Below, piece after piece: positions 13,321 through 63,891 of a DNA stretch of 64,000 nucleotides. Below the pieces are notes generated by a model that was not told where the DNA came from, made no database searches, and saw only the letters and a list, made by a program, of their open reading frames with translations. The stretch comes from Bacteroidota bacterium (GTDB lineage: Bacteria > Bacteroidota > Bacteroidia > Chitinophagales > Saprospiraceae). The position numbers and the translations under genes were made by a program. The stretch is taken from positions 1 through 64,000 of the forward strand of contig JASBVF010000021.1 of NCBI GenBank assembly GCA_030147525.1, read 5' to 3'. Every line of letters starts with the position of its first letter. Position 1 is the first letter of the stretch.

Positions 13321-13383
13321 GGATTGGAGGATTGGAGGACTGAGGGATTGGAGGCAGCTTCAATCCTCCAATCCCTCAATACT
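13321..13383. repeat. Octamer stutter hairpin between hyaB and hyaC
   Basis: One arm is four 8-nt units, GGATTGGA, GGATTGGA, GGACTGAG and GGATTGGA (13321-13352). The opposite arm (about 13361-13383) is their complement. The element ends 7 nt before the hyaC ATG and begins about 9 nt after the hyaB stop. It is the same unit as the tract inside the split ASPIC/UnbV gene near 36170. Confidence 0.8.
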
Positions 13384-13391
13384 TCTACCCT

Positions 13392-15110
13392 TTATAAAAC
13401 TTTCACCCTACTCACGTGCTTGCCATCTTCGTCGTAAACGTGGACGGCGCAGGCCAGGCAAGGGTCGAAAGAGTGAACGGTGCGTAAAATTTCAACTGGC
13501 TGCTCCGGATCGGCAATCGGGGTGTCTTTCAGGGCAGCTTCGTAGGCCGACATGTTCCCGTTCGGGTCACGGGGCGATGCGTTCCACGTTGTTGGAACAA
13601 CCAGTTGATAGTTCTTGATTTTCGTGTCTTCGATGACGATCCAGTGGGCCAGTGCACCCCTCGGAGCTTCGGTATGGCCGACGCCCTTGGCGGTTTTTTC
13701 CCATTTGGCCGGGTTGAATTTTTCCATTTCTGCCATGCGGGTGTCACCGTTTTTCAGGTTTAAAATCAGGCTGTCGTAAAATTCCAGCGCCCAATCGGCG
13801 ACGAGGATGCTCTCCAGGCCACGGGCCGCCGTCCTACCCAGCGTCGAGAACAGCGCCCCGACGGGCACGTTCAGCTTGGCCAGCGTCGAGTCCACCACCG
13901 CTTTGAAATCCTCACGGCCACGTGCGTAACCGATGAGCACACGAGCCAGCGGGCCGACCTCGACGGCGTTGCCTTTCCAGCGTGGCGTTTTCAGGTAGCT
14001 GTATTTTTCATTGACGTTCAGGTGTTCGTATGGCGGTTTCGGGCCGGTGTATTTCACCCTGCTTTCACCCGCCCACGGGTGCAGACCGGCATCTTCGCCG
14101 CCGTCGTACTCGTACCAGGAGCGCTTGATGAATTCCTGCACTTCGGTATCGTTGCGCAAGTCCACGTCCTGCACGTTGGCGATGTCTTTGTTTAAAATGA
14201 CGCCCGAAGGGAATTTGAAACTCGATGGGTCATTGTAGCCGTTCGTTGGCAGGTCGCCGTAGCTCATGTAACTTCCAAGGCCGCCACCAATGGCACCCCA
14301 GTCGAGGTAGTAGGGCGCCACGGCCAGCAGGTCGGGGATGTAAACCTGGTTGATGAAATCTTTGGCATTCTTCAAAAGCTGTTCCACGTAGGCCAGCCGT
14401 TCGGCGTTGATCCCGCTCACATCGTCGAGGCCGATGGCACAGGCCATGCCGCCGACGAGGTAGTTCGGGTGCGGGTTTTTACCGCCAAAAATGGTATGCA
14501 CCTTCACGATTTCTTTCTGCCATTCGAGCGCTTCGAGGTAGTGCGCCACGCCGATGAGGTTCACTTCCGGCGGCAATTTGTAAGCCGGATGGCCCCAGTA
14601 GCCGTTGGCGAAGATGCCAAGCTGGCCGCTTTCGACGAAAGTCGTCAGCCGTTTTTGCAGATCGGAAAAATAGCCGGGGGAACTCTTCGGCCAGTTCGAA
14701 ATGCTCTGTGCAATCTCCGAAGTTTTCTTTGGATCAGCCTTCAGGGCGGAGACCACGTCCACCCAGTCGAGGGCATGGAGGTGGTAAAAATGCACGACGT
14801 GATCGTGCATGTATTGCGTGCAGTACATGATGTTGCGCACCAACTCGGCGTTGGGCGGGATGACAATGCCGAGAGCATCCTCCACCGCCCGGCAAGAGGC
14901 CAGCGAGTGGACCGTGGTACACACCCCGCAAACCCGGCCCACGAAGGCCCATGCATCACGGGGGTCACGCCCTTTTAAAATTTCTTCCAGCAGCCTGACC
15001 ATGGTGCCGGAACTGTAGGCTTCGGAGATTTTGCCGTCTTTGATTTCGGCTTCAATTCTTAGGTGGCCCTCGATTCGGGTCACGGGGTCGACAACTATAC
15101 GTTCGGCCAT
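13392..15110 (-). CDS. hyaB: [NiFe]-hydrogenase large (catalytic) subunit
   Basis: 572 residues. It holds the Ni-Fe(CN)2CO site where H2 is split; after folding it travels with the Tat-exported small subunit to the outer face of the inner membrane. Nickel ligands are both present: RVCGVCTTVH (Cys 61, Cys 64) and DPCLACAVH (Cys 551, Cys 554). The 15 residues after His 557 form the tail expected to be cut off by HyaD. The N-terminus VVDPVTRIEGHLRIE is the conserved L1 region. The start ATG 15110 sits exactly at the family N-terminus. Length and motif spacing fit group 1 uptake enzymes. Preceded by hyaA with a 130-nt gap. Confidence 0.96.
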   Translation of the reverse strand: MAERIVVDPVTRIEGHLRIEAEIKDGKISEAYSSGTMVRLLEEILKGRDPRDAWAFVGRVCGVCTTVHSLASCRAVEDALGIVIPPNAELVRNIMYCTQYMHDHVVHFYHLHALDWVDVVSALKADPKKTSEIAQSISNWPKSSPGYFSDLQKRLTTFVESGQLGIFANGYWGHPAYKLPPEVNLIGVAHYLEALEWQKEIVKVHTIFGGKNPHPNYLVGGMACAIGLDDVSGINAERLAYVEQLLKNAKDFINQVYIPDLLAVAPYYLDWGAIGGGLGSYMSYGDLPTNGYNDPSSFKFPSGVILNKDIANVQDVDLRNDTEVQEFIKRSWYEYDGGEDAGLHPWAGESRVKYTGPKPPYEHLNVNEKYSYLKTPRWKGNAVEVGPLARVLIGYARGREDFKAVVDSTLAKLNVPVGALFSTLGRTAARGLESILVADWALEFYDSLILNLKNGDTRMAEMEKFNPAKWEKTAKGVGHTEAPRGALAHWIVIEDTKIKNYQLVVPTTWNASPRDPNGNMSAYEAALKDTPIADPEQPVEILRTVHSFDPCLACAVHVYDEDGKHVSRVKVL

Positions 15111-15240
15111 GGTGAATATTTTTTCAACCCACAGGCGCAGAAGGCACCCGGTTATTTATTTTAAAAAATTAACAATCAGTAAGTTAGGATAAACCAAAGT
15201 GTCTTCCGAGCCTATGCGTTTTATCAAGTTCAATTGATTT

Positions 15241-16752: not shown

Positions 16753-16754
16753 AA

Positions 16755-16785
16755 GTTCATAGTTCATCATTCATAGTTCATCGTT
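16755..16785 (+). repeat. Heptamer tract before hypA (single arm)
   Basis: Four 7-nt units, GTTCATA, GTTCATC, ATTCATA and GTTCATC, plus GTT fill most of the 40-nt gap and end 7 nt before the hypA ATG. No complementary arm is present. The unit is nearly the same as in the hairpin before the response regulator at 63.8 kb. Confidence 0.75.
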
Positions 16786-16792
16786 AAAAAAC

Positions 16793-17134: not shown

Positions 17135-17139
17135 AACTT

Positions 17140-17212
17140 GTGAATTAGTAAATTGGTAAATCAGGGCAGCGCCCCCTACCAATTCACTACTTTACCAATT
17201 CACCAATTTACC
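17140..17212. repeat. Octamer stutter hairpin between hypA and hypB
   Basis: Left arm GTGAATTA, GTAAATTG, GTAAATCA (17140-17163). The right arm (17177-17212) is the complement of a string of GGTRAATT-like octamers. It starts 5 nt after the hypA stop and ends 6 nt before the hypB ATG. Confidence 0.8.
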
Positions 17213-17218
17213 AAAATC

Positions 17219-18055
17219 ATGTGCGGAATTTGCGGCTGCGGCCAACCGGATGGAACGATTAAAATCACAAAAGTGAGCGCTGAACATACGCACGGGCATG
17301 ACCATGACCACGGACATGGCCATGAACACCATCATCACCACGCTCACGGCAACGGGCGCCACCACGCCCCGCACCAACACCACGGCGGCAGTTTTCAGCC
17401 GGGCAAAACCGTACTCCAGATCGAGCAGGATATTTTAGGTAAAAACAACCTGCTGGCCGAGCACAACCGGGGCTTTTTTGAAGCCAAAAACATCCTTGCA
17501 CTCAACCTCGTCAGCTCGCCCGGCAGCGGCAAAACGGCCCTGCTGGAGCGCACGCTCACTGATTTAAAAAACGAATTCCCCTGCTACGTTATCGAAGGCG
17601 ACCAGCAGACCTCGAACGATGCCAGCCGCATCGCCGCTACCGGCGCTGAGGTCGTTCAGATCAACACCGGCAAGGGCTGCCACCTCGAAGCGGACATGAT
17701 CAACGACGCTTTGAAACAACTGAAGCCCGCTGATGACTCGCTGCTTTTCATCGAAAATGTGGGCAACCTCGTTTGCCCTGCCATGTTCGACCTTGGCGAG
17801 GGTGCACGGGTCGTCATCATCAGCGTGACCGAGGGCGAGGACAAGCCGGTGAAATACCCGGACATGTTTCACTCCTCGCAGCTTTGCATTATTAATAAAA
17901 TCGATCTGCTGCCGTACGTAAGTTTCGACGTTGAAAAAGCGAAAGAATACGCACGGCGAGTCAGCCATATCACTGAATTTATTGAACTCTCCGCCACCAC
18001 CGGCCAGGGCATGGAGCAATGGTACGAGTGGCTGCGGAAGAAAGTAGGCCGGTAG
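17219..18055 (+). CDS. hypB: Hydrogenase nickel incorporation GTPase HypB
   Basis: 278 residues from ATG 17219; an in-frame upstream start would run through the repeat element and is rejected. The N-terminal CGICGCG motif is the high-affinity nickel site. A stretch of about 20 histidines (residues ~22-56) is a nickel-storage region. The G domain has the P-loop SSPGSGKT, EGDQQTSNDA, NTGKGCHLEADM, and the base-recognition motif NKIDLL. GTP hydrolysis drives nickel transfer with HypA. Oddity: the stop codon TAG (18053-18055) and the last codons are part of the following octamer repeat, so the extreme C-terminus (VGR) may be repeat-derived. Confidence 0.95.
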   Translation: MCGICGCGQPDGTIKITKVSAEHTHGHDHDHGHGHEHHHHHAHGNGRHHAPHQHHGGSFQPGKTVLQIEQDILGKNNLLAEHNRGFFEAKNILALNLVSSPGSGKTALLERTLTDLKNEFPCYVIEGDQQTSNDASRIAATGAEVVQINTGKGCHLEADMINDALKQLKPADDSLLFIENVGNLVCPAMFDLGEGARVVIISVTEGEDKPVKYPDMFHSSQLCIINKIDLLPYVSFDVEKAKEYARRVSHITEFIELSATTGQGMEQWYEWLRKKVGR

Positions 18056-18143
18056 GCCGGTATGCGAGCAGGCCAGTAACGGATCGAAAAAAAATTCCCG
18101 GGGCTGCCTGCTCGCCTACTTGCCTACCAGCCTACTCGCCTAC
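18044..18143. repeat. Octamer stutter hairpin overlapping the hypB stop, before hypC
   Basis: Left arm GTAGGCCG, GTAGGCCG, GTATGCGA, GCAGGCCA (18044-18075). The right arm (18106-18143) is the complement of GTAGGCNN octamers. The hypB stop TAG lies in the second unit, and the element ends 7 nt before the hypC ATG. Confidence 0.85.
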
Positions 18144-18150
18144 TAAAAAA

Positions 18151-18550: not shown

Positions 18551-18566
18551 AATCAAATGCAAAACC

Positions 18567-20973: not shown

Positions 20974-21465
20974 ATGAAATTATTCAAAATTATCCTCTCG
21001 TTGATCATCCTTATTTTTGCCACACAGTTTGCCGTTGCTCAAAGAGGCAACCCAACTAAAAAAACAGTCAAATCGAAAAGTGTAGAAGAAGTACAAAAAG
21101 AAAAAGGACAGGACAAAGCAATCGATGAGGCTGAGAAAAAGCCTCAGCGGGTAAAAGATATGCAAGCACAGCAAAAACTTGAAAAAGAGGAGCGCAAAGC
21201 TGAAAAAACCAGCCAAAAAGCTGACAAAGCAATTGATAAGGCTGAGAAAAAGCCGCAGCGGGTAAAGGAAATGCAAGCGCAGCAAAAGCTGGAAAAGGCG
21301 GAGCAAAAAGCTGAAAAAACCAGCCAAAAAGCTGACAAAGCAATTGATAAGGCTGAGAAAAAAGACAGGAAGTCCAATAAAAAATCTGACAAGGTTCAAA
21401 ATAAAGCCAAAGAGAAGAATACGCAGAAAGCAAAAAGTCAGGAAAGGACCTCTACATCCAAATAA
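20974..21465 (+). CDS. Secreted Lys/Gln-rich repeat protein
   Basis: 163 residues with a signal peptide (MKLFKIILSLIILIFAT... up to VAQ). The rest is very basic and helical: two nearly identical 37-residue units (each starts DKAID and contains KKPQRVK and MQAQQKLEK) followed by a third partial unit and a Lys-rich tail. A long alpha-helix or coiled coil in the periplasm or outside the cell is predicted. I do not recognise a family. Composition is far from the neighbours, but the codon set is simply Lys/Ala/Glu-driven. Own terminator downstream. Confidence 0.7.
   Translation: MKLFKIILSLIILIFATQFAVAQRGNPTKKTVKSKSVEEVQKEKGQDKAIDEAEKKPQRVKDMQAQQKLEKEERKAEKTSQKADKAIDKAEKKPQRVKEMQAQQKLEKAEQKAEKTSQKADKAIDKAEKKDRKSNKKSDKVQNKAKEKNTQKAKSQERTSTSK
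21113..21358 (+). repeat. 111-bp tandem repeats in the Lys-rich gene
   Basis: Units of 37 codons begin at about 21113 and 21224, with a partial third at about 21335. The DNA of the two full units is nearly identical, suggesting recent duplication and possible copy-number variation. Confidence 0.75.
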
Positions 21466-27149: not shown

Positions 27150-27890
27150 ATGATTTTACGAACTGAAAATTTAGTCAAACGCTACGGCGACCGCACCGTC
27201 GCCAAAGAAGTTTCCCTCAATGTCCACCAGGGGGAAATCGTCGGACTGCTGGGCCCCAACGGCGCAGGCAAAACCACCACTTTTTACATGGTCGTCGGTT
27301 TCATCAAACCCAACGGCGGCAATGTTTTCCTTGAAAAACGGGACATCACTGCCCTGCCGATGTACAAACGGGCAAGGCTCGGCATTGGCTACCTGCCGCA
27401 GGAACCATCTGTTTTCCGGAAACTGAGCGTGGAAGACAACATCAAAGCCGTGCTGGAAATGATGCCGCTGACGAAAGAGGAACAATCACAACGCCTCGAA
27501 GGGCTGATCACCGAATTCGGTCTTGAAAAAGTGCGTACCAGCAAGGGCGATACCCTCTCCGGCGGTGAGCGCCGCCGTACGGAAATCGCACGGGCGCTGG
27601 CCAGCGACCCCAAATTTATCCTGCTCGACGAGCCCTTCGCCGGTATCGACCCCATTGCTGTGGAAGACATCCAGACCATCGTTTTTAAACTCAAAGCCCG
27701 CAACATCGGCATCCTCATCACCGATCACAACGTGCAGGAAACCCTTTCCATCACCGACCGGGCTTACCTGATGTACGACGGCGCCATCCTCATGGCCGGA
27801 ACGGCAGAAGAACTCGCCGCCGACGAACAGGTGCGCCGCCTCTACCTCGGCCGGAATTTTGAATTGAAACGGAAGATACTGGATGTGTGA
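27150..27890 (+). CDS. lptB: LPS export ABC transporter ATP-binding protein
   Basis: 246 residues, the family norm. Cytoplasmic ATPase of the LptBFGC extractor that moves lipopolysaccharide from the inner membrane to the Lpt bridge. Walker [12 protein letters not shown]-loop [18 protein letters not shown], signature LSGGERRR, Walker [12 protein letters not shown] and the H-loop [10 protein letters not shown]. The [11 protein letters not shown] and [10 protein letters not shown] segments are typical of LptB. LptF/G/C are not adjacent. The stop codon TGA lies at the start of a low-complexity octamer tract. Confidence 0.95.
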
Positions 27891-28010
27891 GAGAATGAGA
27901 GGATGAGAACGGTAAAAGCAAAATTTTCAGCTTTGGTCTGCAACCATTTTTTATCTAAAACCCTCTGTAAAAACGGGAACTCAATAACTCATTAACCTAA
28001 TAACTCAAAA
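27887..28010 (+). repeat. Octamer tracts flanking the lptB-BatD gap
   Basis: GTGAGAGA, ATGAGAGG, ATGAGAAC (27887-27910) begins inside the lptB stop codon. AACTCAAT, AACTCATT, AACCTAAT, AACTCAAA (27979-28010) ends 3 nt before the next ATG. The two tracts are not good complements of each other, so they may be remains of two elements. Confidence 0.6.
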
Positions 28011-28013
28011 CTT

Positions 28014-28583
28014 ATGAAAAAGGGATTTTTCAGTTTTTTCTTCGCAATGGCTTTCCTGGCAACGGCCACTGCCCAGGACAAGCCTGTTAAATTCACCGTA
28101 CAGGTCAGCACCGATTCCATCCTCGTAGGTAACTATTTCGAGGTGAAATTCACCCTCGAAAACGCCAGCGGCCAGAACTTCGAAGCGCCCGATTTTAAAG
28201 ATCACTTCAACGTGGTGAGCGGCCCGAACCATTCCACTTCCATGAGCATCGTCAACGGCAACATGACACAAAGCATGACCATCACCTACTACCTCGAACC
28301 AAAAGACGTGGGCGCTTTTTACATCCTGCCGGCCAGCGTCAAAGCTGGCGATAAAGTACTGGAAACCAGCCCATTGGAAGTACTCGTCGTACCGAATCCC
28401 GACGGCATCAAGCAAAATCAACCCCGCCGGATGGACAGTTTCCAGTTCAATTGGGGAGACATGCCGGACATGAATTTTGATTTTTCCTTCCCTGATTTCA
28501 GGAATTTAATGCCGCCACCGCCACCGGCGGAGGAAGCTCCGAAAGAAGCGCCGAAAAAGAAGAAAAAGACCATCCGGATTTAG
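28014..28583 (+). CDS. Short BatD-like secreted protein
   Basis: 189 residues with signal peptide (GFFSFFFAMAFLATATAQ). The remainder matches the first Ig-like domain of BatD-type oxygen-tolerance proteins: ILVGNYFEVKFTLENASG, FNVVSGPNHS and ITYYLEPKDVGAFYILPASV. Full BatD proteins are about 550-600 residues with a C-terminal membrane helix. This one stops after one domain with a Pro/Lys-rich tail (PPPPPAEEAPKEAPKKKKK). No batA, batB or batC neighbours. Either a truncated relic or a small relative with its own role. Confidence 0.75.
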   Translation: MKKGFFSFFFAMAFLATATAQDKPVKFTVQVSTDSILVGNYFEVKFTLENASGQNFEAPDFKDHFNVVSGPNHSTSMSIVNGNMTQSMTITYYLEPKDVGAFYILPASVKAGDKVLETSPLEVLVVPNPDGIKQNQPRRMDSFQFNWGDMPDMNFDFSFPDFRNLMPPPPPAEEAPKEAPKKKKKTIRI

Positions 28584-28586
28584 GAT

Positions 28587-28650
28587 GAACGCAGAGACGC
28601 AGTGACGCAGAGTACCACATTCACCTCTGCGTCCTTGCGTCTCAGCGTTC
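28587..28650. repeat. Octamer stutter hairpin filling a convergent gap
   Basis: Arm ACGCAGAG, ACGCAGTG, ACGCAGAG (28589-28612) faces the complement of ACGCTGAG, ACGCAAGG, ACGCAGAG (about 28624-28650). It begins 3 nt after the BatD-like stop. On the other side it reaches into the TGA of the glycosidase gene. Confidence 0.85.
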
Positions 28651-31063
28651 AAAAAACTTCCACCGAGTTAGTCGCCCCAGAAACCTCCAACATTTCCAGC
28701 CCGCCATCCCGCTCCGGCGTCACCACCTTCCCGTTCAACGTCCATTTTTTAAACTTCCCTTCGGGAAATGCCACCCGGATTTTCCAGTCTGTTTTTGTTT
28801 GGGTCAAATCGATTTTTACGCCGCTCCCCTGCCGTAAGTATTTCATCGTCAAACTATTATCGCCAATGGTCAAATTTTCCAGACTGGCCTCGTCCCAAGT
28901 CGATGGCATCAGCGGACGCAAGTTCACCAGCCGGTTTTGTGCCTCCGGCCGGATGCCAAAAAACTGCGTCACCACCGGTACCGCCAGGGCATACACGTTC
29001 CACGCCTGCGCCATCATCCCGAAGTCCGGCGACACCTCGTACATCGAGCCGGGCATGGCGTAGCTGAACGACCGCACCATGCGTTGCAGGTAGTCCAGCG
29101 CCTCGTCAGGACGGCCGTAGTTGTTTTCGGCGATGGCCTGCACGCCCGTCGGCAGGGTCATCACGGCGCCGACGTAGGAGAAAATTTTCTTTTTCGCTGC
29201 AAACGACCCCTCGTCCTGCCCTGCCGTCTCGTCCCGGTCGATGCCGGTGACGAACATCCCGAACGGATTGACGAATTGACTGCCCGTTTCCAGCGCCGCC
29301 ACTGCCTTTTCAGGGTCGGCGATGCCGGTTTCCATGGGCGTGTTCACCACCCAGTTGTGGTAAAGTACGAATCCCTGCTTCCGGTCGGGCGGCAAGCTGG
29401 CGATTTTGGCTTTGGTGGCCCGAAGTTCCTCCACAGCCCAGGGCTTGCCCAGCGTGTCGGCTCTGACAATGGCGTCGTCGATGAGGTGCAGCGCCTGCCG
29501 GGTGGTTCCGATGAAGTCGGCGTAGGAGTTAAATTCCGGCACCCAAAACTCCGAGTTGATGCGCTGCCTGAGCTGTTCTGCCACTTTACGGTACTCAGCC
29601 GCTTGTTCCGTTTCACCCATTTCATCTGCCATGTTGGCGGCATCGGCGAAAGCCTGGCAGGTGTAGGCCGCCACGTCGATCATCTCGCTGTCGAGGCCGT
29701 GGATCTCCATCATGCCGAAGCCGTCGGGCAGCAGGTTGCCGTCGGCATCATTTTCTTTGAGTAGCCAGGCGAGGCCCTGCTTCACGAGTGGGTAGTATTT
29801 TTTTAAAAAAGCCCGGTCGCCCGTCCACTGGTAAGTCGTCCAGATGAGGGAGGCGAACTGCGGCGTTTCGTTGATGTTGCCGGGGTTGAAAACCGAGCCG
29901 TTCGTCGATGCTTCGTGGAGGATGCGGCCATTACCGTTAGTCTCGTCCGAAAGTTTTTTCAGCAGATCAATCGTACTGAAAACGATATCTGTGCGGCCCG
30001 TTGCCAGCACGCCAGGCAGGGCGTATTCGCTGTCGCAACCGAACCACCACGGGTAGTCGGGCGTGCCTGCCGAGATGCCCCTCCCCTGCCCCGGCACGTC
30101 CCGGATGAGCCAGTCGGTGTTGTATTTCACCCACTCGAAAGCCTGCTGGATGTTTTTGTCGGGCACGGTGAGGCGGGCCGTGGCAGCTATGCCGGCGTAG
30201 CGTTCTTTTTTGCTTCGCAACAAATCCCCGGCATTTCGCTGCAGGTTTTGCAAAGTTTTTACCGCCGCTGTCTGCGATTGGTACGACCCGGCGATGACGA
30301 TGGGCAGCACCGCCGTTCCGCCCGCCTGAACACTGATTGGGTAGGAAAGCGAGCCGTTGGCGCCCCTGCCCGCCCGCTCGAAATCGCAAGCCTGGCTGCC
30401 AATTTCATGTTCCGAAGGAACCTGCACCGAACCCCACACCACGAACCAGTCGTTCAGACTATCCTTGCCGACCATACTGCCGGTGGACTCGTCGAAACGG
30501 ACGAAGTCGCCGCCGTCCTCCATGCCCGTGCGCTCGCCGAGCCAGACGGGGCGCAGGTCGGTCATGCCGTTGAAATCGAAGGTGAAGCTTTGCGCCGTTT
30601 GGGTTTCATTTTCAAAAACAAACTCCACCACCACCGCCTCCTCGCCATCCGGCACAAACTGGAAGCGCTCCACACTCACCCCCAGCGGCGTTTTTTCATA
30701 AAAATGACTGCTGGCAAACGGGTACTTGACGAACCTCTCTGCCCGGTCGAGGCAGTGCGTTTGCCCGTCCGTGCGAAGCGCCGCAGCGAAGCCGTCCATC
30801 AGTTTGATGGGATGATCCCAGATGCCGCCCATTTCACCGGTCACGTGCCAGCCGAGGTCCGGGAAAGTACCGTCCTGATGGCCCACCACGTACAACCGGT
30901 CGCCGGAGGTGACGCAGGGGGAATTGAGGTAGCTGGGTTTGCCTTCGATGCCCTCCACGCCCTGCATGATTTCCTGCAGGCTGGCAGAGCTGGCAGGCTG
31001 CGGTTTTTGACACTGGAAAAAGGTGAGGGCAAGGGTGATGGCGAGGGTGAGTTTTAGTCGCAT
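28649..31063 (-). CDS. Six-hairpin glycosidase (glycogen-debranching-enzyme-like), secreted
   Basis: About 804 residues from ATG 31063; the frame runs further upstream but the signal sequence (LKLTLAITLALTFFQC) starts here. The Cys after FFQ suggests a lipoprotein. The N-terminal half is a beta-sandwich (VERFQFVPDGEEAVVVEFVF). The C-terminal half is an (alpha/alpha)6 barrel with DYPWWFGCDSEYALPG, GNGRILHEAST, DADGNLLPDG and ASLIWTTYQWTGD, as in amylo-alpha-1,6-glucosidase/GH15-like families. It likely trims oligosaccharides taken up by the SusC/SusD system encoded upstream on the same strand. Exact GH family and linkage are not determined. Confidence 0.8.
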   Translation of the reverse strand: MRLKLTLAITLALTFFQCQKPQPASSASLQEIMQGVEGIEGKPSYLNSPCVTSGDRLYVVGHQDGTFPDLGWHVTGEMGGIWDHPIKLMDGFAAALRTDGQTHCLDRAERFVKYPFASSHFYEKTPLGVSVERFQFVPDGEEAVVVEFVFENETQTAQSFTFDFNGMTDLRPVWLGERTGMEDGGDFVRFDESTGSMVGKDSLNDWFVVWGSVQVPSEHEIGSQACDFERAGRGANGSLSYPISVQAGGTAVLPIVIAGSYQSQTAAVKTLQNLQRNAGDLLRSKKERYAGIAATARLTVPDKNIQQAFEWVKYNTDWLIRDVPGQGRGISAGTPDYPWWFGCDSEYALPGVLATGRTDIVFSTIDLLKKLSDETNGNGRILHEASTNGSVFNPGNINETPQFASLIWTTYQWTGDRAFLKKYYPLVKQGLAWLLKENDADGNLLPDGFGMMEIHGLDSEMIDVAAYTCQAFADAANMADEMGETEQAAEYRKVAEQLRQRINSEFWVPEFNSYADFIGTTRQALHLIDDAIVRADTLGKPWAVEELRATKAKIASLPPDRKQGFVLYHNWVVNTPMETGIADPEKAVAALETGSQFVNPFGMFVTGIDRDETAGQDEGSFAAKKKIFSYVGAVMTLPTGVQAIAENNYGRPDEALDYLQRMVRSFSYAMPGSMYEVSPDFGMMAQAWNVYALAVPVVTQFFGIRPEAQNRLVNLRPLMPSTWDEASLENLTIGDNSLTMKYLRQGSGVKIDLTQTKTDWKIRVAFPEGKFKKWTLNGKVVTPERDGGLEMLEVSGATNSVEVF

Positions 31064-34200: not shown

Positions 34201-34735
34201 CCTCCACGTCGCCGGAGTTGCAGACGTAGATGTCGAGCCAGCCGTCGCCGTTGACGTCAGCCATGGCGGCGCCGGTGCTCCAGCGGCCCATGCCTTCGAT
34301 GCCGGCTTCTTTGGAGATGTCCTTAAATTTCCAGTTGCCGAGGTTGAGGTAGAGGCGGTTGGGCAACATGTTGGCGGTGAAAAAAATGTCGGGAAGCCCG
34401 TCGTTGTTTACGTCGCCGATGGCCACGCCGCCACCGTTGTAGAAATTCCGGTAGGTGTAAATGTTGAAATCCTGCCGGAATTCGAGCTTGTTCTCGAAGT
34501 CGATGCCGGTGAAACTGGCGGGCATTTCGGTGAACATCGTGTCAGGCGGCGGGGCTTTTTCGGTGCAGGATTGAAGCAGAAAAATGATGAGGAGCGTGAC
34601 GAGGGCACCCCTGACCCCACCCCTGACCCCTAAAGGGGAACCACTTCGGACAGTTTTAGCAGAAATTTCCCTGTGTGGTTCCCCTTTAGGGGTAAGGGGT
34701 GCCGTATTTTTAAAAAAACCTTTATCTAATTTCAT
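31253..34735 (-). CDS. ASPIC/UnbV (VCBS/FG-GAP repeat) lipoprotein 1
   Basis: 1160 residues. A lipoprotein signal (LVTLLIIFLLQSC) is found only at about residues 45-57, preceded by ~44 residues encoded by an inserted palindrome. After that come many FG-GAP/VCBS calcium-binding repeats of the type GDVNNDGLPDIFF and DFDGDGDLDLFVG, predicting one or two seven-bladed propellers, with an ASPIC/UnbV segment (VDSLIVEWYYGKVTVLTNVPTNQVLVL, here near residues 620-645) between them. Such proteins commonly accompany SusC/SusD pairs in Bacteroidota and are thought to be surface-exposed binding proteins. Three low-complexity 7/8-nt tracts are translated in-frame inside it. A paralogue lies upstream. Confidence 0.88.
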   Translation of the reverse strand: MKLDKGFFKNTAPLTPKGEPHREISAKTVRSGSPLGVRGGVRGALVTLLIIFLLQSCTEKAPPPDTMFTEMPASFTGIDFENKLEFRQDFNIYTYRNFYNGGGVAIGDVNNDGLPDIFFTANMLPNRLYLNLGNWKFKDISKEAGIEGMGRWSTGAAMADVNGDGWLDIYVCNSGDVEGDNKENELYINNGLLNEQQTTNNEQQIPTFTEQAKAYGLADPGLSTHAAFFDYDKDGDLDMYLLNNSFRAIGSFDLRKNEREKRDPVGGDKLFRNDGEKFTDVSEQAGIYGSIVGFGLGVTVGDVDKDGWQDIYVSNDFFERDYLYLNNQNGTFREVLDQQMGSISAASMGADVADINNDGWPDFFVTEMLPEPEARIKTKTTFENWNRYQEGIKNGYFHQFTRNMLQLNNGDGSFSEIGRLAGVEATDWSWGALIQDFNNDGLKDIFVANGIYQDLTDQDFLQFIADDETKRSVISKEGVDFKKLVDYIPSEAVPNYLFEGQGNLSFKNRAQEWGLAKPGFSNGSAYADLDLDGDLDLVVNNLNMPAFIYRNNVETFAPQNRWLSVVLKGEGANPFAVGTKITVKHQGQQFYLEHNPIRGFESSMEYKAHFGLGEIQTVDSLIVEWYYGKVTVLTNVPTNQVLVLDEKEAAASEAVTSSYRLTSAALFTPITNHQSPVTNYRHTENLFVDFDRDRLIYQMISTEGPKISVGDVNGDGQDDFFIGNAKDSPGAMIVQRGGRFIKTNEAILQKDSLSEDLGSALFDADGDGDLDLYVCSGGNEFSASSSALRDRLYLNDGRGNFTLKDVMLPAGRFESTSCVKPADFDGDGDLDLFVGMRLVPFYYGVPCNGYILQNDGKGNFKNVSNEIAPELKEVGMITDAAWLDIDGDGDLDLAVVGEWMPIKIFKNENGRFSPLTLSLSHPLALSSGWWNCLEVADLNGDGHPDLIAGNHGRNSRFRASEEKPISCYINDFDQNGSVEQIICQFNGEKSYPLVLRHDLISQMPNLKKKYLKYESFKEQTIQDIFTPEQLQNSLVHEVTRLETSVYLNDGKGNFTPVPLPLEAQLSPVYAILPQDFDGDGKMDLLLGGNLYNVKPEMGRYDASFGCLLKGRGDGTFEYIPPKVSGLRLVGQVRDFAVVKSGGQRLLLVARNDAEMQVFRF
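31955..32004. repeat. In-gene octamer tract in ASPIC/UnbV gene 1
   Basis: Units GAGAGAGC, GAGAGGGT, GAGAGAGT, GAGAGAGT on the plus strand, in a 50-nt segment between flanks shared with the paralogue (CACCAGCC and GGCCGTTTTC). It encodes the low-complexity peptide LTLSLSHPLALSSG. The corresponding segment of the paralogue is 33 nt of a different octamer. Confidence 0.85.
32700..32783. repeat. In-gene heptamer tract plus palindrome in ASPIC/UnbV gene 1
   Basis: Five 7-nt units TTGGTGA/CTGGTGA/TTGGTGA/TTGGTGA/TTGGGGT (32700-32734), then an inverted repeat with 17-nt arms (32749-32765 and 32767-32783, one mismatch). Both are translated in-frame in the linker between the ASPIC region and the next propeller repeat. 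Confidence 0.8.
34124..34158. repeat. In-gene heptamer tract in ASPIC/UnbV gene 1
   Basis: Five 7-nt units TTGTTGT, TCGTTGT, TCGTTGT, TTGTTGT, TCGTTTA. It encodes the Asn/Gln-rich insert NEQQTTNNEQQ, which is absent from the paralogue at the same place. Confidence 0.85.
34604..34703. repeat. 100-nt palindrome inserted at the 5' end of ASPIC/UnbV gene 1
   Basis: The right arm (34676-34703) is the complement of the left arm (34604-34643), apart from a single change and a 12-nt tandem duplication in the left arm. The loop is 32 nt. Translated, it gives LTPKGEP...GSPLGVRGGVRG, a peptide pattern I associate with a repeated palindrome in Bacteroidota genomes. It separates the start codon from the lipoprotein signal. 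Confidence 0.8.
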
Positions 34736-36195: not shown

Positions 36196-38986
36196 TTTTG
36201 AAAATGGTGAGGGGCATGTACTCGCCGGCGAGGGCGAGGTCGGGGTCGCCGTCGCTGTCGATGTCGAGCCAGGCGGCGGAGGTGATCATTCCGATGTCTT
36301 TCAGGGCGGGAGCGACGGTGGCGGTGACGTCGGTGAAGTTGCCCTTGCCATCATTTTGCAAAATAAAACCGCTGCACGGCACGCCGTAGAGGAACGGCCG
36401 CAGACGGACGCCGACGAACAAATCCAGGTCGCCGTCGCCGTCGAAGTCGGCGGTTTGCACGGCGCCGGTGCTTTCAAATTTTGAAAAGGGCGGTTTTTGC
36501 GATTTGGTAAAATTCCCACGCCCGTCGTTCAGGTAGAGGCGGTCGAGCAGGGCGGAGGCACTGGACGGGAATTCGTTGCCGCCGCTGGCGACGTAGAGGT
36601 CGAGGTCCCGGTCGCCGTCGGCGTCGAAGAAGATGCAGTCGGTGTCTTCGCTGATTTTATCTTCTTCGAAAGTTGCCTGGTTGATTTGGGTGAAACCGCC
36701 ACCGGCTTTTTGCAGGAACAACGCCCCCGGCGAGTCCTTCGCTCCGCCGATGTAAAAATCTTCGAGGCCGTCGCCGTTCACGTCACCCTTGCACATGGGC
36801 GGGCCGCTGGCGGAGAGCATGTTGAAAATCAGGCGGTCACGATCGAAATCGTTGAAGTCGTTTTCCCGGTGCTGGTAATTGATGGAAAATGAGGGAGACG
36901 GTTTTTTGAAAATCTTTTTAAAATCCTCCGGATGAGGACTTTGAAAAAGCCAATTCTGGGCCCTCCAAGCACTGAAGAATGCCGGATCCATTTGATCTTC
37001 CGGTTTCAAGGTCAAAAACTGGTTGGTAGGCACGTCCGTCATCATGATGGCCCCTCCATAAGCCGGCCAGATCACTACCATTGTATCGATTTTTTCAATA
37101 TCCCCCAACCCGAAGTGCAGGCGGTTGTCCACCGTCGATTCAAAACCCCGCATGGGTGCAATCTCCTGGTAAAATATTTTGCCATCGTGCAGGATGGTGG
37201 CTTTCGCTCCGATGGCCTGCGTGTTTTTGCCCTCGCCCACGATTTTCAGGTTCAAAAAGCGGTTGTTTTTCAGCAGCGTATCCGCATTGTTCCGGTAGAT
37301 GAAGGCGGGCATGTCCTGGTTGTTCACCACGAGGTCGAGGTCGCCGTCGTTGTCGAGGTCGCCGTAGGCGCTACCGTTAGAAAAGCTGGGCTGGGCGAGG
37401 CCCCATTCAGCGGCTTTGTTTTGAAAGGTGGGGACTTTCAGTTGTGGCGACCGGTATTTCATTTCTGCCTGAGGATAGACACCGAGACTGTCCAATTCTT
37501 GAATCGTATATTTTTTGGGCTTTGGAAATTTGCTTTGAAAGAGTTGATTTTGAAATGCGTAGTTCGCAATCTTCTCAGCCGGCATGTCGTCCACCATTTT
37601 GGTGATAGCCTTGCCTTCAGCTTTCAGGACGGCCCGCACGTTGTCCGGGTCTGAGTAAAAATTGACGTAGTCCTGGTCGGTGAGGTCTTTCCCGATGCCG
37701 TTGGCAACGAAAATGTCCTTCCAGCCATCATTGTCCATGTCGAAAATGAGCGCTCCCCAGCTCCAGTCGGTGGCCTGCACGCCGGCCAGGCGGCTGATTT
37801 CGGTGAAATGGACGCCTACTTTTGAATATTCTTCGGGGAAAGCATCGATTTTTAAACTCTGATGGTTTGCCTCCAGGGCAGTCGCAGCACCCAGGTTGAG
37901 TTGCAATGCATTCCGGGTGAACTGGTGGTAGTAACCGTTTTTCACCTCCTGCTGGTAGAGGTCCCAGTTTTCGAATTTGGTTTTGGTTTTAATGCGTAAG
38001 TCGCTTTCGGGCAGCATCTCGGTGACGAAGATGTCGGGCCAGCCGTCGTTGTTCAGGTCAGCGATGTCGGCGCCCATGCTGCCCATGCTGGTTTCCCGGA
38101 TGCAATCTTCGAGAGCTTCTTCGAAGTAGCCGTCGTAGCTGTTCAGGTAGAGGTAATCCCTTTCAAAAAAATCGTTGGAAACGAACATGTCCGGCAGTTT
38201 GTCCTGGTTGAGGTCGCCGATGGCCACGCCGAGGCCGAAGCCGATGTTGCTGCTGAAAATATTGGTGGCACTGGTCACATCGATGAAAAAGGGTTCGCCG
38301 TTGTTACGGGTATCGTTTCGGTAGAGTTTATTCCCACCCTGCGGGTCGGGTGTGTTGCGCTGGCCTTTGATCAAATCGTAGCCGCCGACGGAGCGCAGGG
38401 AGTTATTGAGCAGGTAGAGGTCAAGGTCGCCGTCGAGGTCGTAGTCGAAAAAGGCGGCGTGAACGGAGAGGCCCTCGTCGTGGAGGTTGTAGTCTTTGCT
38501 TTTTTCAGTGAACGTTAGGTCTTTGTTGTTGATGAACAATTCGTTGTGGCGTTTTTCGCCGCCGGGCGGGCCTGATTTGCATACGTAGATGTCGAGCCAG
38601 CCGTCGCCGTTCACGTCGGCGATGGAGACGCCGCTGGACCAGACGCCGCTGCTGCCGACACCGGCCTGTTCGGTGATGTCTTCGAATTTGAAATTGCCCT
38701 TGTTGAGGTAGAGGCGGTTGGAGACCATGTTTCCGCAAAAGAAAATATCAAGCAGGCCGTCGTTGTTGAAATCGCCGAGGCCGACGCCGCCGCCGTTGTA
38801 GAAATTGCGGAAGGTGTAGCAGTTGAGTTCTTCGGTGTATTTGACGTTGTTGGCGAATTCGATGCCGGAGTATTCGGAGGGAACAAGGGTGAAAAGGGTG
38901 TCGGTTTTCAACTCGACTTTCTGCCGGCAGGCAGCTACGGATAGCATTAAAACCGATAAAACGAAAGCCTTGTGAAGGTTGCCCAT
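36020..38986 (-). CDS. ASPIC/UnbV (VCBS/FG-GAP repeat) lipoprotein 2, 5' part
   Basis: The frame runs 988 codons, but homology to its paralogue stops at about 36180; the last ~50 residues (Arg/Pro-rich) are out-of-frame read-through. Lipoprotein signal LSVLMLSVAAC at the N-terminus. FG-GAP repeats such as GDFNNDGLLDIFF and DINDFDRDR-type loops follow, an ASPIC/UnbV element (IDTMVVIWPAYGG, NVPTNQ-like DVPTNQFLTL), then more repeats. It is the first gene after the SusD terminator, so it needs its own promoter in the ~170-nt gap 38987-39155, which I could not pinpoint. With the 3' part restored the protein would be about 1180 residues. Confidence 0.85.
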   Translation of the reverse strand: MGNLHKAFVLSVLMLSVAACRQKVELKTDTLFTLVPSEYSGIEFANNVKYTEELNCYTFRNFYNGGGVGLGDFNNDGLLDIFFCGNMVSNRLYLNKGNFKFEDITEQAGVGSSGVWSSGVSIADVNGDGWLDIYVCKSGPPGGEKRHNELFINNKDLTFTEKSKDYNLHDEGLSVHAAFFDYDLDGDLDLYLLNNSLRSVGGYDLIKGQRNTPDPQGGNKLYRNDTRNNGEPFFIDVTSATNIFSSNIGFGLGVAIGDLNQDKLPDMFVSNDFFERDYLYLNSYDGYFEEALEDCIRETSMGSMGADIADLNNDGWPDIFVTEMLPESDLRIKTKTKFENWDLYQQEVKNGYYHQFTRNALQLNLGAATALEANHQSLKIDAFPEEYSKVGVHFTEISRLAGVQATDWSWGALIFDMDNDGWKDIFVANGIGKDLTDQDYVNFYSDPDNVRAVLKAEGKAITKMVDDMPAEKIANYAFQNQLFQSKFPKPKKYTIQELDSLGVYPQAEMKYRSPQLKVPTFQNKAAEWGLAQPSFSNGSAYGDLDNDGDLDLVVNNQDMPAFIYRNNADTLLKNNRFLNLKIVGEGKNTQAIGAKATILHDGKIFYQEIAPMRGFESTVDNRLHFGLGDIEKIDTMVVIWPAYGGAIMMTDVPTNQFLTLKPEDQMDPAFFSAWRAQNWLFQSPHPEDFKKIFKKPSPSFSINYQHRENDFNDFDRDRLIFNMLSASGPPMCKGDVNGDGLEDFYIGGAKDSPGALFLQKAGGGFTQINQATFEEDKISEDTDCIFFDADGDRDLDLYVASGGNEFPSSASALLDRLYLNDGRGNFTKSQKPPFSKFESTGAVQTADFDGDGDLDLFVGVRLRPFLYGVPCSGFILQNDGKGNFTDVTATVAPALKDIGMITSAAWLDIDSDGDPDLALAGEYMPLTIFKNENGHLQSSNPPILPWLVELPHRHRPQRRRPSRPRRREPRPELPLESQPRTARDDVDQ
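36151..36183. repeat. Octamer tract at the frameshift site of ASPIC/UnbV gene 2
   Basis: Units GGAGGATT x3 plus GGAGG (36154-36182), inside a 33-nt segment flanked by sequence shared with the paralogue, whose segment is 50 nt. The length difference of 17 nt is 2 mod 3, which is the frameshift. Tract length therefore decides whether the full protein is made. Confidence 0.85.
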
Positions 38987-56658: not shown

Positions 56659-56677
56659 GTCTGATTTTCCAACAAAT

Positions 56678-60265: not shown

Positions 60266-60307
60266 AGGAAATTGATGAAACTAAAAATTTCCAATTTCAT
60301 CAATTTC
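60266..60307. repeat. Inverted repeat between fabD and yqgE-like gene
   Basis: Perfect 14-nt arms GGAAATTGATGAAA (60266-60279) and TTTCATCAATTTCC (60294-60307). The arms and loop are made of GAAATT-like words spaced 7-9 nt, so this is probably a degenerate member of the stutter-hairpin family. Confidence 0.65.
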
Positions 60308-60350
60308 CTCTCTCAAGTTTCTGTCTCTTATTTTTGAAACGACCCAGCAT

Positions 60351-61229: not shown

Positions 61230-61237
61230 AAATTTCA

Positions 61238-61326
61238 ATTGCTGGATTGTTGAATTGTTTGATTGCTGGATTGTTGGATTGCTCATAAACGCTTAACAAT
61301 CAAACAATTCAACCGTCAAACAATCA
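61238..61326. repeat. Octamer stutter hairpin between folE and fabD
   Basis: Six 8-nt units of the ATTGCTGG/ATTGTTGA type (61238-61285). The opposite arm (61295-61326) is their complement. Its outer end contains the folE stop codon TGA (61324-61326). The near end is 8 nt before the fabD ATG. Confidence 0.88.
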
Positions 61327-61938: not shown

Positions 61939-62067
61939 GATAAAGGTAGCTAAGAAGTTGGTAAGTTACGATTTAACAGGTATGAAAACAGAGCCTATGC
62001 CTTTTTGTTCCGCCGGCAAATTTATTTGACAGTCAGAGACCGTCTGGTTATTTCGAAGAAAAAAACC

Positions 62068-62478
62068 TTATTCTCCAAAATATTCCACGTAGATATTCTC
62101 CGTTTCGTAGAGCTTGATGCTGTGCAGCTTGCAGTTTTTGATGTGTGGTTCAAGCTGTTGCCAGAACAGAATGGCAAGGTTCTCCGTGGTAGGCTGCATA
62201 CCTTTGGGAATGAAATCCACGTCGAGGTTCAAATTGGAATGATCCACCTTGTCGACGATGGTCATTTTGATGAGTTTGCTCAGCTCTTTTACGTCCATGA
62301 CGAAACCGGTCACAGGATCGGGTTGGCCTTTCACCGTAACGAACAAGTCGTAGTTGTGGCCATGCCAGTTGCGGTTGGAGCATTTACCAAACATCTGCTG
62401 GTTTTTCTCATCGCTCCATGCTTCCACCCAGAGTTTATGGGCAGCATTAAATCGTTCTCTCCTTGTCAGATATACCAT
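62068..62478 (-). CDS. queD: 6-carboxytetrahydropterin synthase (QueD family)
   Basis: About 136 residues from ATG 62478. It converts dihydroneopterin triphosphate to 6-carboxy-tetrahydropterin for queuosine, or acts as a sepiapterin/PTPS-like enzyme. Zinc histidines in FNAAHKLW and HGHNY; catalytic Cys in FGKCSNRNWHGH; the family element DHSNLNLD is present. An in-frame ATG at 62490 adds four residues but lies inside a heptamer repeat, so 62478 is preferred. Next to folE, which supplies its substrate. Confidence 0.93.
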   Translation of the reverse strand: MVYLTRRERFNAAHKLWVEAWSDEKNQQMFGKCSNRNWHGHNYDLFVTVKGQPDPVTGFVMDVKELSKLIKMTIVDKVDHSNLNLDVDFIPKGMQPTTENLAILFWQQLEPHIKNCKLHSIKLYETENIYVEYFGE

Positions 62479-62480
62479 GC

Positions 62481-62546
62481 CAGTTGACATTGTGCAGTTG
62501 GCGGCGAGCAGCAGGGATGTGAAAGACTGCCAACTGCCAACTGAAA
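62481..62546. repeat. Heptamer stutter hairpin before queD
   Basis: Near arm CAGTTGA, CATTGTG, CAGTTGG (62481-62501). Far arm ACTGCCA, ACTGCCA, ACTGAAA (62526-62546). Ends 2-3 nt before the queD ATG at 62478. Confidence 0.75.
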
Positions 62547-62747
62547 TTCGGGGCGCAAAGGTAAGAAAATGCTGAACTTTTTGCTTTCCCTTCCCCTCGC
62601 CTTATTCCGTTTATTTTCAGGCCGGATTAAACATCGTACCAACTCACCATTTTATCTAAATAATTCCCACCTTTCGTCCTTTTCGACCGACCATTGCTTT
62701 AACATTTGTTTCTTTCGGCCTGTTTACCGGCTGAAATCTTGTTGTAC

Positions 62748-63812
62748 ATGAGTTTGACACTAAGCGAAAATATCAGGCAGAGAATATTGCGGCTTGTTTC
62801 CAACCGGGCCGTTTATCACTCCCTTTTCTGGGCAGGGATTTTAATTTTTTATTCCATTGTCGATATGGTCTTCACCGGCCAGGGCTTTTTTTACACCCTG
62901 AGCAACAATGTGGTCCGGCTCATCATTCTCGGCGCTGCGGTTTATTACAATATTTACGTGTTGATTCCCAAATACTTAGTCAGTAAAAAATTCATGGGCT
63001 ACATCGGTTTCCTGTTGCTCGTCGTGTTCATCGTCTCGCCGTTGGAAGCCTTTTTGATTTACGTGAAATCAAGTGACATCCCCGAAATGCAGTCCAACGT
63101 CCTCATGAGCCTCAACTGGTCATTTATCCCCAATTTTTTCATCCTCGGCACCTCCACCGTCGTAAAAATCACCGTCGACTGGTACAAAAACATCCGGGAA
63201 CGGCAGGAACTGGAAACCGAAACCATGCAGTCGGAACTGCGTTTTTTAAAATCGCAGATCAATCCGCATTTTCTTTTTAATACCCTCAACAGCCTCTACG
63301 CCCTCACACTCAAAAAATCGGATCTGGCCCCCGACATCGTGCTCAAACTCTCCGAAATGATGCGTTACATGCTCTACGAGTGCAACGAAAAGTGGGTAGA
63401 TTTGAGCAAGGAAGTCAACTACATCGCCAACTACCTGGAACTGGAACGCCTGCGCCAGGGCAACCACGTTGACATCCATTTCGATGTGCAGGGCAACATC
63501 AGCGACCAGAAAATCGCACCGCTGATGTTCATTCCTTTTATCGAAAACTGTTTCAAACACGGGCTGGGCCATCATCTTTCCAAAGGTTTTGTCAACATCC
63601 GTCTGCATGTTACCGAGAATAAAGTAGATTTGTTTATCGAAAACAGCAAGCCTGAGAGCATGCCTAAACCCCTGCACCCTCGCAGCGGCGGCATTGGCCT
63701 CGTCAACGTACGCCGCCGCCTCGACCTGCTCTACCCCGGCCATTATTCCCTGAACATTGAAGACAGCCCGAAAACCTATGCCGTAAATTTGAAATTATCG
63801 CTTGAATCGTAA
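62748..63812 (+). CDS. LytS/YpdA-type sensor histidine kinase
   Basis: 354 residues from ATG 62748. Four transmembrane helices in the first ~150 residues (YHSLFWAGILIFYSIVDMV, NNVVRLIILGAAVYYNIYVL, YIGFLLLVVFIVSPLEAFLIY, IPNFFILGTSTVVKI). A short coiled segment is followed by the His_kinase motif ELRFLKSQINPHFLFNTLN (phospho-His in NPHF). The ATPase part is of the HATPase type with PLMFIPFIENCFKHG (N box) and GGIGLVNVRRRLDLLYPG (G box). It pairs with the response regulator that starts 88 nt downstream. Stimulus unknown. Confidence 0.93.
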   Translation: MSLTLSENIRQRILRLVSNRAVYHSLFWAGILIFYSIVDMVFTGQGFFYTLSNNVVRLIILGAAVYYNIYVLIPKYLVSKKFMGYIGFLLLVVFIVSPLEAFLIYVKSSDIPEMQSNVLMSLNWSFIPNFFILGTSTVVKITVDWYKNIRERQELETETMQSELRFLKSQINPHFLFNTLNSLYALTLKKSDLAPDIVLKLSEMMRYMLYECNEKWVDLSKEVNYIANYLELERLRQGNHVDIHFDVQGNISDQKIAPLMFIPFIENCFKHGLGHHLSKGFVNIRLHVTENKVDLFIENSKPESMPKPLHPRSGGIGLVNVRRRLDLLYPGHYSLNIEDSPKTYAVNLKLSLES

Positions 63813-63816
63813 ATTA

Positions 63817-63891
63817 ATGATGAATGATGAACGATAAATGATAAATATATCCACGCTCATTCATCGTTCATCATTCATCATTCATCATTAT
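63817..63891. repeat. Heptamer stutter hairpin between kinase and response regulator
   Basis: Arm ATGATGA, ATGATGA, ACGATAA, ATGATAA (63817-63844) faces TCATTCA, TCGTTCA, TCATTCA, TCATTCA, TCATTAT (63857-63891). It begins 4 nt after the kinase stop and ends 9 nt before the next ATG. Confidence 0.88.

Follow-up and report, generated by a model that had tools for sequence, protein, structure and literature searches.

The gaps between genes in the window, by which is meant here the whole 64,000-nt stretch of DNA analysed, hold imperfect hairpins with arms made of short tandem units, and the question they raise is how such stutter hairpins came to stand at so many gene junctions. They probably belong, as IVP-less members, to a class of dispersed elements. 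In its complete form such an element consists of a G-rich array of 7-9 nt units, a gene for the 23S rRNA intervening-sequence protein (IVP or S23, PF05635) and a complementary C-rich array.

Stutter hairpins of the window and their place in gaps

Ungapped inverted repeats with a score of at least 14, stuttered or not, number 12 in the window and 0 in each of five Markov shuffles. Eleven places had been named in the first-pass annotation; seven are stutter hairpins, and the others comprise one single arm, one weak case and two places that are not stuttered. The unit period of 7 or 8 nt that had been claimed is borne out by the arrays of the window. The places are as follows, with z-scores of the RNA fold against shuffles taken on the listed coordinates or on slightly wider stretches:

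13320-13383: stutter hairpin, unit GGATTGGA, between two minus-strand genes; fold z -3.9
15128-15218: fold without a 7/8 array, not stuttered; z -3.9
16755-16785: single arm of the 7-nt unit AGTTCAT, partner arm absent; fold 0 kcal/mol
17138-17214: stutter hairpin, unit TTGGTRAA, in the gap called hypA-hypB; fold z -4.6
18043-18144: stutter hairpin, unit GTAGGCRR, in the gap called hypB-hypC; fold z -8.2
27887-28012: weak case, short TGAGAGAA and AACTCAAT arrays; fold z 0.01, the level of shuffles
28586-28651: stutter hairpin, unit ACGCAGAG, convergent genes on either side; fold z -9.8
60266-60309: plain hairpin, not clearly stuttered, 7/8 array absent; fold z -5.5
61238-61326: stutter hairpin, unit ATTGTTGR, between two minus-strand genes; fold z -3.8
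62478-62548: stutter hairpin, 7-nt unit TTGGCAG/CTGCCAA, array clear only in the right arm; fold z -2.9
63814-63891: stutter hairpin, 7-nt unit AATGATG/RTTCATC; fold z -8.4

By fold, the weakest of the seven stutter hairpins is 62478-62548, for which 2 of 200 shuffles are equally good. The hairpins of the window enclose no ORF, and a scan for terminators with loops of 3-8 nt found no site coinciding with a stutter stem, the site at 28570-28588 overlapping the edge of one. The genes flanking 13320-13383 are called hydrogenase genes, names that come from the sequence-only first-pass annotation.

Beyond the window, 26 of the 35 tandem runs found in 277 gaps (464 kb) have a period of 7, 8, 14 or 16, against a total of 2 runs in shuffled gaps and 3.6 in coding DNA of equal length. 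The dominant periods are 7 and 8, and 9-nt units are present too. In 864 kb, 42 of the 44 stutter inverted repeats lie at gaps, one of these 42 wholly within a called gene end, and 28 of the 42 have codirectional neighbours. Hairpins are borne by 11 of 60 convergent gaps versus 3 of 87 divergent ones (Fisher p 0.004), the comparison between codirectional and divergent gaps giving p 0.07. The closeness to the next ATG that had been described holds for about half of the codirectional cases: in 15 of 28, counted by eye with an overlap of up to 10 nt allowed, both ends lie within 50 nt of the flanking genes.

The arms also have a direction. Of 67 stutter inverted repeats, 65 have a five-prime arm rich in G and poor in C (one opposite, one tie), whereas in plain inverted repeats G exceeds C in 57 five-prime arms and the opposite is seen in 56, with 11 ties, all these counts including repeats of one family that are not independent. 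The arms of 71 bare hairpins contain 185 stop triplets on the five-prime side and 49 on the three-prime side, and the triplets TGA, TAG, ATG, GTA, AGT and GAT are present in 75, 57, 43, 45, 59 and 62 of 144 arms, respectively. Stops in all three frames were rejected as the cause of the 7/8 spacing, the C-poor composition being able to explain most of the difference.

IVP genes in the loops of long stutter hairpins

IVP genes tend to sit in the loops of long stutter hairpins. Among the testable IVP loci of the genus, drawn from the best-scoring 35 of 133 PF05635 matches, 30 of 34 have paired flanks scoring at least 14, a score reached by 7 of 170 non-cognate flank pairs and by 14 of 413 control genes of 200-900 bp given the flank lengths of the IVP test. 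An earlier gene control with gap-only flanks, in which 19 of the 413 genes had flanks too short to be scored, gave 12 genes at this level: two of them are IVPs, others are DUF559-, GIY-YIG- and RAYT-like ORFs by other repeats, and others are nuo genes between stutter hairpins. Within the same genus, other hairpin families enclose RAYT-, GIY-YIG- or DUF559-like ORFs, named by eye.

The association extends to many phyla. In a sample of the best 80 of at least 587 IVP loci from GTDB, 43 of 80 reach a score of 14 (7 of 240 non-cognate pairs), and among the 69 of these loci with long flanks pairing is found near the gene in 38 and farther away in none; in 60 of these 69 the IVP gene has an array of period 7, 8, 9, 14 or 16 nearby, and in 11 such an array is found far away. 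On cyanobacterial plasmids, 6 of 11 IVP loci are paired and 9 of 11 have an array in at least one flank. Paired flanks stay below 14 at 37 of the 80 GTDB loci and at 5 of the 11 plasmid loci. The IVP gene is sense-oriented within gene rows, in the same direction as both neighbours at 61 of 73 loci and opposite to both at 2 of 73. Twenty loci, drawn from the 25 GTDB loci without paired flanks among the 80 overall, were searched for a location in rRNA, and none lies there. That the number of IVP genes sets the number of hairpins was considered and is not clearly supported by two genomes: G171, with 6 PF05635 matches, lacks stutter inverted repeats over 80 kb, and G005 has 7 matches, with no inverted repeat of period 6-9 in one 100-kb sample and four in the nuo region.

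The window itself is tied to these elements through its arms, since four of its arrays match IVP-element arms, for three of which the element lies in the same genome. The arm at 13320-13383 resembles that of IVP-bearing locus L268 (score 26, maximum 12 in 30 shuffles), 17138-17214 resembles L264 (23, shuffled maximum 12) and 18043-18144 resembles L262 (15, shuffled maximum 9), and the right arm of 62478-62548 resembles the congener IVP loci L292, L290 and L281 (18, 15 and 15, shuffled maximum 9). Five of the nine arrayed places match none of the IVP arms tested, among them 28586-28651 and 63814-63891, each with no match, and 61238-61326, which has no clear match (scores of 12 and 12 against shuffled maxima of 15 and 11). 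Moreover, one family, with the unit AATGTAG, has bare hairpins as well as a copy with an IVP gene: about 11 loci carry an identical odd unit within the arm, and the IVP gene sits at one of these loci.

Such an element would spread within its genome, more often to nearby sites, and would be tolerated because its place, in transcribed gaps, lies after one gene's stop codon and before the next start codon. Its transcript would fold and may be cut by RNase III, by analogy with rRNA intervening sequences. The IVP, which has a ring-forming relative and a likeness to Avd (both described below), may bind the repeated arm with one unit per subunit, and the spacing would therefore be kept while the sequence drifts.

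Unit families, sister species and competing explanations

The first-pass annotation described a different sequence at each site, which is right in that units differ between families, but units recur across the genome. The GTAGGCRR unit-pair has 145 matches in this genome but no more than one in any of 13 congeners; TTGGTRAA occurs at 40 distinct related loci genome-wide; and the three-unit AATGATG/RTTCATC pattern has 44 matches. The hairpin at 28586-28651 has a second copy at G000_C10 75741, and units resembling ATTGTTGR of 61238-61326 are found at G000_C25 33282 and G000_C46 95795. Unit sequences universal in the phylum can be rejected, as among 247 genomes the three-unit GTAGGCRR pattern is found in this one alone and the three-unit RTTCATC pattern in 8.

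The best-surviving rival, although unlikely, is local generation without a mobile element, in which slippage would produce the tandem units, template switching would add the second arm and the IVP would be a later guest. Changing units at a conserved position, the pattern that the first-pass annotation had proposed as its support, are found at several orthologous gaps: the hypA-hypB gap has the unit TTGGTAAA here and ATTGGGT in G001, and the gap after the gene at 28014-28583 has ACGCAGAG here and AGTCTTC in G004, in a comparison in which 7 of the 14 best loci were on the opposite strand and left unturned. At nuoJ-nuoK, all three species scored have stutter hairpins with differing units, those of G001 and G009 looking related. 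Inheritance is seen too, because at nuoA-nuoB one unit is common to 5 of 7 species (by eye). Private variants common to both arms at L009, L378 and L383 also favour local generation. Some local remaking of hairpins is plausible, because sister copies, judged by eye, have unrelated loops while their arms are alike. Against generation afresh at each site, however, stand the odd in-arm unit common to the AATGTAG loci, one with an IVP, the multiplication of GTAGGCRR in only one species, the single G/C direction of the arms and the clustering of related loci, the 40 TTGGTRAA loci forming 27 pairs no more than 15 kb apart (random mean 3.3, highest of 5000 draws 15). Local generation as first proposed is thereby partly supported. 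Two results speak against the reading as IVP-less elements. Likeness between arms of one site is 0.93, a slight excess only over the 0.89 for arms of different sites. A mirrored order of units between arms was also tried and is not persuasive, 6 of 74 cases falling below 0.05, which is not significant.

A second and quite improbable reading takes the heptad hairpins as the footprint of an IVP/Avd-dependent, RNA-templated process. RNA of the C-rich arm would be copied onto both three-prime ends of an opened gene junction, each end would gain an identical G-rich repeat of 7-8 nt, and the ends would be joined via filler or the IVP gene. If true, it would account for the inversion of the arms and their G/C direction, for the loop-less spread of arms and for the unit dialects, and it would unite the known repeats discussed below as STRRs, TAACTGA repeats and rRNA intervening sequences.

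It is very unlikely that these are RNA hairpins with a function, preserved by selection because they stabilise mRNA or couple the translation of operon genes, as suggested for STRRs. Their position near stop and start codons, the richness of nuo gaps in hairpins (28 of 82) and the fact that most window cases out-fold shuffles agree with such a role, but the mismatches of codirectional hairpins show no G-U preference (G-U 17 versus A-C 35). Pairing kept by selection is not supported by this test, which goes against the RNA-hairpin role proposed in the first-pass annotation. In addition, many orthologous gaps have no hairpin by the automatic rule (nuoL-nuoM 0 of 4, nuoC-nuoD 0 of 6), and 80 kb of each of four genomes from other genera contain only 0, 0, 1 and 2 periodic inverted repeats. 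In nuoC-nuoD of G006, one hairpin is visible by eye despite the zero of the automatic rule.

Classical miniature transposable elements or REP-like repeats, with a transposase acting in trans, are very doubtful: dispersed families with inverted arms, and the RAYT-, GIY-YIG- and DUF559-like ORFs in other hairpin families of the genus, speak for them, but neither the sequence (within the class) nor the loops are kept, and the enclosed gene encodes a four-helix-bundle protein that is not known to have any enzyme activity.

Likeness to known systems

Read as IVP-less members of a dispersed class, the window hairpins resemble in design both rRNA intervening sequences and the STRR (short tandemly repeated repetitive) hairpins of cyanobacteria. 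The first-pass annotation knew of no named family with this design, yet STRRs come very close. They are described, in the sections consulted, as usually 7-bp tandem units in gaps, capable of forming hairpins and reported between the hydrogenase genes hupS and hupL; their function was not known in 2009, transcript stability or translational coupling being suggested (PMC2670836). Tandem units of about 7 bp, intergenic position, many copies per genome and hairpin folds are all found here. The differences are that the host here appears Bacteroidota-like and not cyanobacterial, that 8- and 9-nt units occur too, and that the link with the IVP is absent from the STRR description in those sections (PMC2670836).

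In the relevant part of its description, the rRNA intervening sequence with an S23/IVP gene is a stem-loop with the IVP ORF in the loop, of origin and function called unclear in 2016 and suggested earlier to be a mobile element (PMC4990558). The likeness lies in complementary ends around a loop with an IVP ORF, as at 30 of 34 genus loci; the window hairpins differ in lying between protein genes, not in 16S or 23S rRNA genes, and in having stuttered arms. The rule that IVP genes tend to lie in heptad hairpin loops links rRNA intervening sequences with STRR hairpins, which, though described apart, may be elements of a single kind. It further hints that repeats standing between genes of operons may in many cases be members of a single spreading class, for which PF05635 with flanking arrays offers a marker for counting in any genome, and the IVP is the protein to test. 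No work joining IVP genes with 7-nt repeats was found in the accessible text of open-licence PMC papers.

Other repeats are more distant. TAACTGA repeats of Beggiatoaceae, Cyanobacteria and some Bacteroidetes are, in the excerpts available, arrays of heptamers between genes, most of them immediately before a start codon; they consist of one fixed heptamer in direct orientation, the main genome having only one indirect or inverted case, and these excerpts do not mention the IVP (PMC4679880). BrickBuilt, a MITE of Porphyromonas gingivalis, shares a tandem repeat inside a dispersed Bacteroidota element, but according to the portion of its description covered this is a fixed-sequence 23-nt direct repeat with small inverted ends, unlike the stuttered hairpins here (PMC4596501). 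REP/REPIN sequences with RAYT have a palindrome conserved across copies, whereas here units differ between families and loops within a family.

Finally, an IVP relative from Xanthomonas is a ring of five four-helix bundles, and PF05635 resembles the Avd protein of diversity-generating retroelements, according to the part of the source consulted (PMC10053308). The IVPs match 2gsc and 2rld, of five chains each, and 2 of 8 match the bAvd profile below its cut-off. For the IVP of one congener, the nearest named relative comes from a Saprospiraceae MAG.

Intervening-sequence protein genes between paired arrays

Genes for the 23S rRNA intervening-sequence protein (IVP; S23, PF05635), the first of which was spotted by eye between nuoC and nuoD of the congener G001 and then recognised with Pfam, are commonly enclosed by stutter hairpins, inverted repeats whose arms consist of tandem 7-, 8- or 9-nt units. 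All seven PF05635 matches in the source genome lie between complementary arrays, and the genus holds 133 matches, with the family present in 14 of 14 genomes. From these 133 loci, 35 were extracted and 34 scored, one being too near a contig end; the flank-pairing score reached at least 14 in 30 and at least 12 in 31 of the 34, versus at least 14 in 7 of 170 non-cognate flank pairs. Three genus loci (L269, L270 and L272) score below 12. L294, which Pfam matches partially and below its cut-off, scores 13 and is poorly periodic. Among control genes of 200-900 bp from three genomes, 14 of 413 reach 14 with flank lengths as in the IVP test; with gap-only flanks 12 do so, two of which are themselves IVPs.

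The arrangement extends well beyond the genus. Of at least 587 GTDB matches, the best 80 were scored: 43 reach 14 and 55 reach 12, whereas 240 non-cognate pairs do so in 7 and 17 cases. Near the gene, the 69 of these loci that have long flanks reach 14 in 38 cases and 12 in 49; farther from it the counts are none and two. The commonest readable period at the 43 paired loci is 7 (34/43), and loci paired at 14 or more outside Bacteroidota include, as the records name them, Planctomycetota, Ignavibacteriae, Desulfosarcina, Thiodictyon and Alphaproteobacteria. IVP matches also occur in 31 plasmid records, mostly cyanobacterial; 11 loci were inspected, of which six have paired flanks and nine carry an array on one or both sides of the gene. 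Three of these 11 genes sit within CRISPR-Cas operons of cyanobacterial plasmids (L387, L388 and L396; cas6-IVP-cas4 and cas10-IVP-cmr3); their flanking arrays have a 7-nt unit at L387 and L388 and an 8-nt unit at L396.

Eight IVPs checked by Pfam all belong to PF05635, two also giving a bAvd match below cut-off, and a profile built from seven IVPs matches 2gsc and 2rld. The cited part of PMC10053308 describes PF05635 as akin to Avd, a protein of diversity-generating retroelements, and reports a ring made up of five four-helix bundles.

Hairpins of the window and of the genome

The window is contig C15 of a 7.08 Mb draft genome, compared here with 13 congeners. The first-pass annotation had named eleven places, three of them as weaker cases; seven are stutter hairpins whose arrays repeat every 7 or 8 nt, and the others are one single arm, one weak case and two places without stutter. 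The seven are:

13320-13383, stutter hairpin
17138-17214, stutter hairpin
18043-18144, stutter hairpin
28586-28651, stutter hairpin
61238-61326, stutter hairpin
62478-62548, stutter hairpin
63814-63891, stutter hairpin

Counting ungapped inverted repeats scoring at least 14, stuttered or not, the window has 12 and five Markov shuffles have none. Window arms at 13320, 17138, 18043 and 62526 match IVP-locus arms well above shuffles; those of the remaining five arrayed places have no such match. Family models were run for IVP alone, and gene names such as hypA, hypB, hyaB and nuo are provisional, given by eye or taken from the first-pass annotation. Elsewhere in the window, 34618-34701 is a separate hairpin family with CACCCCTGACCCCTAAAGGGGAACC arms, its sequence recurring between nuo genes in G005 and G009; 10-76 is a strong inverted repeat (GGCCGGGTTATTTACCCGGCG) that resembles one at L016 16042 and is perhaps another dispersed palindrome; and 21112-21362 is a 111-nt tandem repeat of 2.3 copies overlapping an open frame.

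Genome-wide, 35 tandem runs were counted in the 277 gaps of a 464 kb sample, 26 of them with period 7, 8, 14 or 16; the corresponding totals are 2 runs in shuffled gaps and 3.6 in coding DNA of equal length. In 864 kb there are 44 stutter inverted repeats (score at least 12, arm autocorrelation at least 0.6 at lag 6-9), with a few weak cases among them; two are in coding sequence and 42 were assigned to gaps. Those 42 comprise 11 in 60 convergent, 28 in 286 codirectional and 3 in 87 divergent gaps of at least 40 nt by our own gene finder (Fisher, convergent versus divergent p 0.004, codirectional versus divergent p 0.07).

The earlier view that the unit differs at each site needs qualifying: units can differ at one junction between species, but the same ones recur within this genome, namely TTGGTRAA (at least 40 loci, a lower bound from scoring 40 of 77 first-look candidates), the GTAGGCRR pair (145 matches) and the RTTCATC triplet (44 matches). 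Neighbouring gaps often have a common unit, with 27 TTGGTRAA locus pairs within 15 kb versus 3.3 expected under a null that ignores contig ends and gap supply.

The AATGTAG family (about 11 loci in this genome) includes one copy with an IVP in the loop (L267). Among nine further loci, seen in short stretches, six, including a short one, keep paired family arms; L382, L384 and L385 retain one arm or fragments. The arms have in common an odd unit, AATTTTC/AATTTTT, and the loops appear unrelated by eye. At L009, L378 and L383 the two arms have private variants in common, and over eight loci the arms of one site average 0.93 identity (8 pairs) versus 0.89 for arms of different sites (111 pairs).

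Direction of the arms and known relatives

The 5' arm is G-rich and C-poor in 65 of 67 stutter hairpins, with one opposite and one tie, family members not being independent; plain hairpins of the same genomes divide 57 versus 56, with 11 ties. IVP arms follow the same direction (genus 29 versus 1; GTDB 37 versus 1, 5 ties). By a crude longest-ORF rule that drops loci without a clear neighbour, the IVP gene is codirectional with both neighbours at 19/31 genus and 61/73 GTDB loci and opposed to both at 0/31 and 2/73. Both asymmetries point to, rather than prove, the RNA level or single-stranded copying; selective loss of antisense copies would explain them too. As regards an RNA role, a strong fold alone is what any inverted repeat would give. 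G-U is not favoured over A-C among mismatches in codirectional hairpins (17 versus 35) or in IVP stems (29 versus 33 and 19 versus 23).

In design, the window hairpins closely resemble cyanobacterial short tandemly repeated repetitive (STRR) hairpins, including a hydrogenase operon location (cited part of PMC2670836), and the IVP loci resemble rRNA intervening sequences (IVS) in having a stem whose loop holds an IVP ORF (cited part of PMC4990558). TAACTGA repeats are a possible further relative, from what is set out in the cited part of PMC4679880. Because the window hairpins, unlike IVS, lie outside rRNA and, unlike STRR, have a host that is not cyanobacterial, they are filed within the STRR/IVS kind as a variant new to it.

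Sister species and orthologous junctions

G009 and G001 also carry many stutter hairpins, with units mostly different from those of this genome, GGATTGAA-like and TTGTTGGA-like units being common to both sides; GTAGGCRR gives at most one match in each of 13 congeners. The expectation of changing units at orthologous gaps is upheld at hypA-hypB, nuoA-nuoB and nuoJ-nuoK, but only in part, since at nuoA-nuoB one unit is, by eye, common to five of seven species. In G001, the 9-nt unit GGTTTAGRR recurs along the nuo operon, at nuoA-B, B-C, C-IVP, IVP-D and G-H, among other junctions. Across the nuo regions of eight species, an automatic rule, which misses some visible hairpins such as G006 nuoA-nuoB and nuoC-nuoD, finds a stutter hairpin in 28 of 82 gaps of at least 15 nt. 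Samples of 80 kb from each of four genomes of other genera in the family contain 0, 0, 1 and 2 periodic inverted repeats.

Three further ORFs, likened by eye to known families, are flanked by inverted repeat copies: a DUF559-like ORF between CCCCCTAACCCCCTTCAAAGGGGG copies in the nuo operon at G001_C38 74271-74654 (L105, L106 and L186-L189 joined), and a GIY-YIG-like ORF (G009_C17 67260-67727) and a RAYT/Y1-like ORF (G009_C18b 36554-37030), each between copies of its own repeat.
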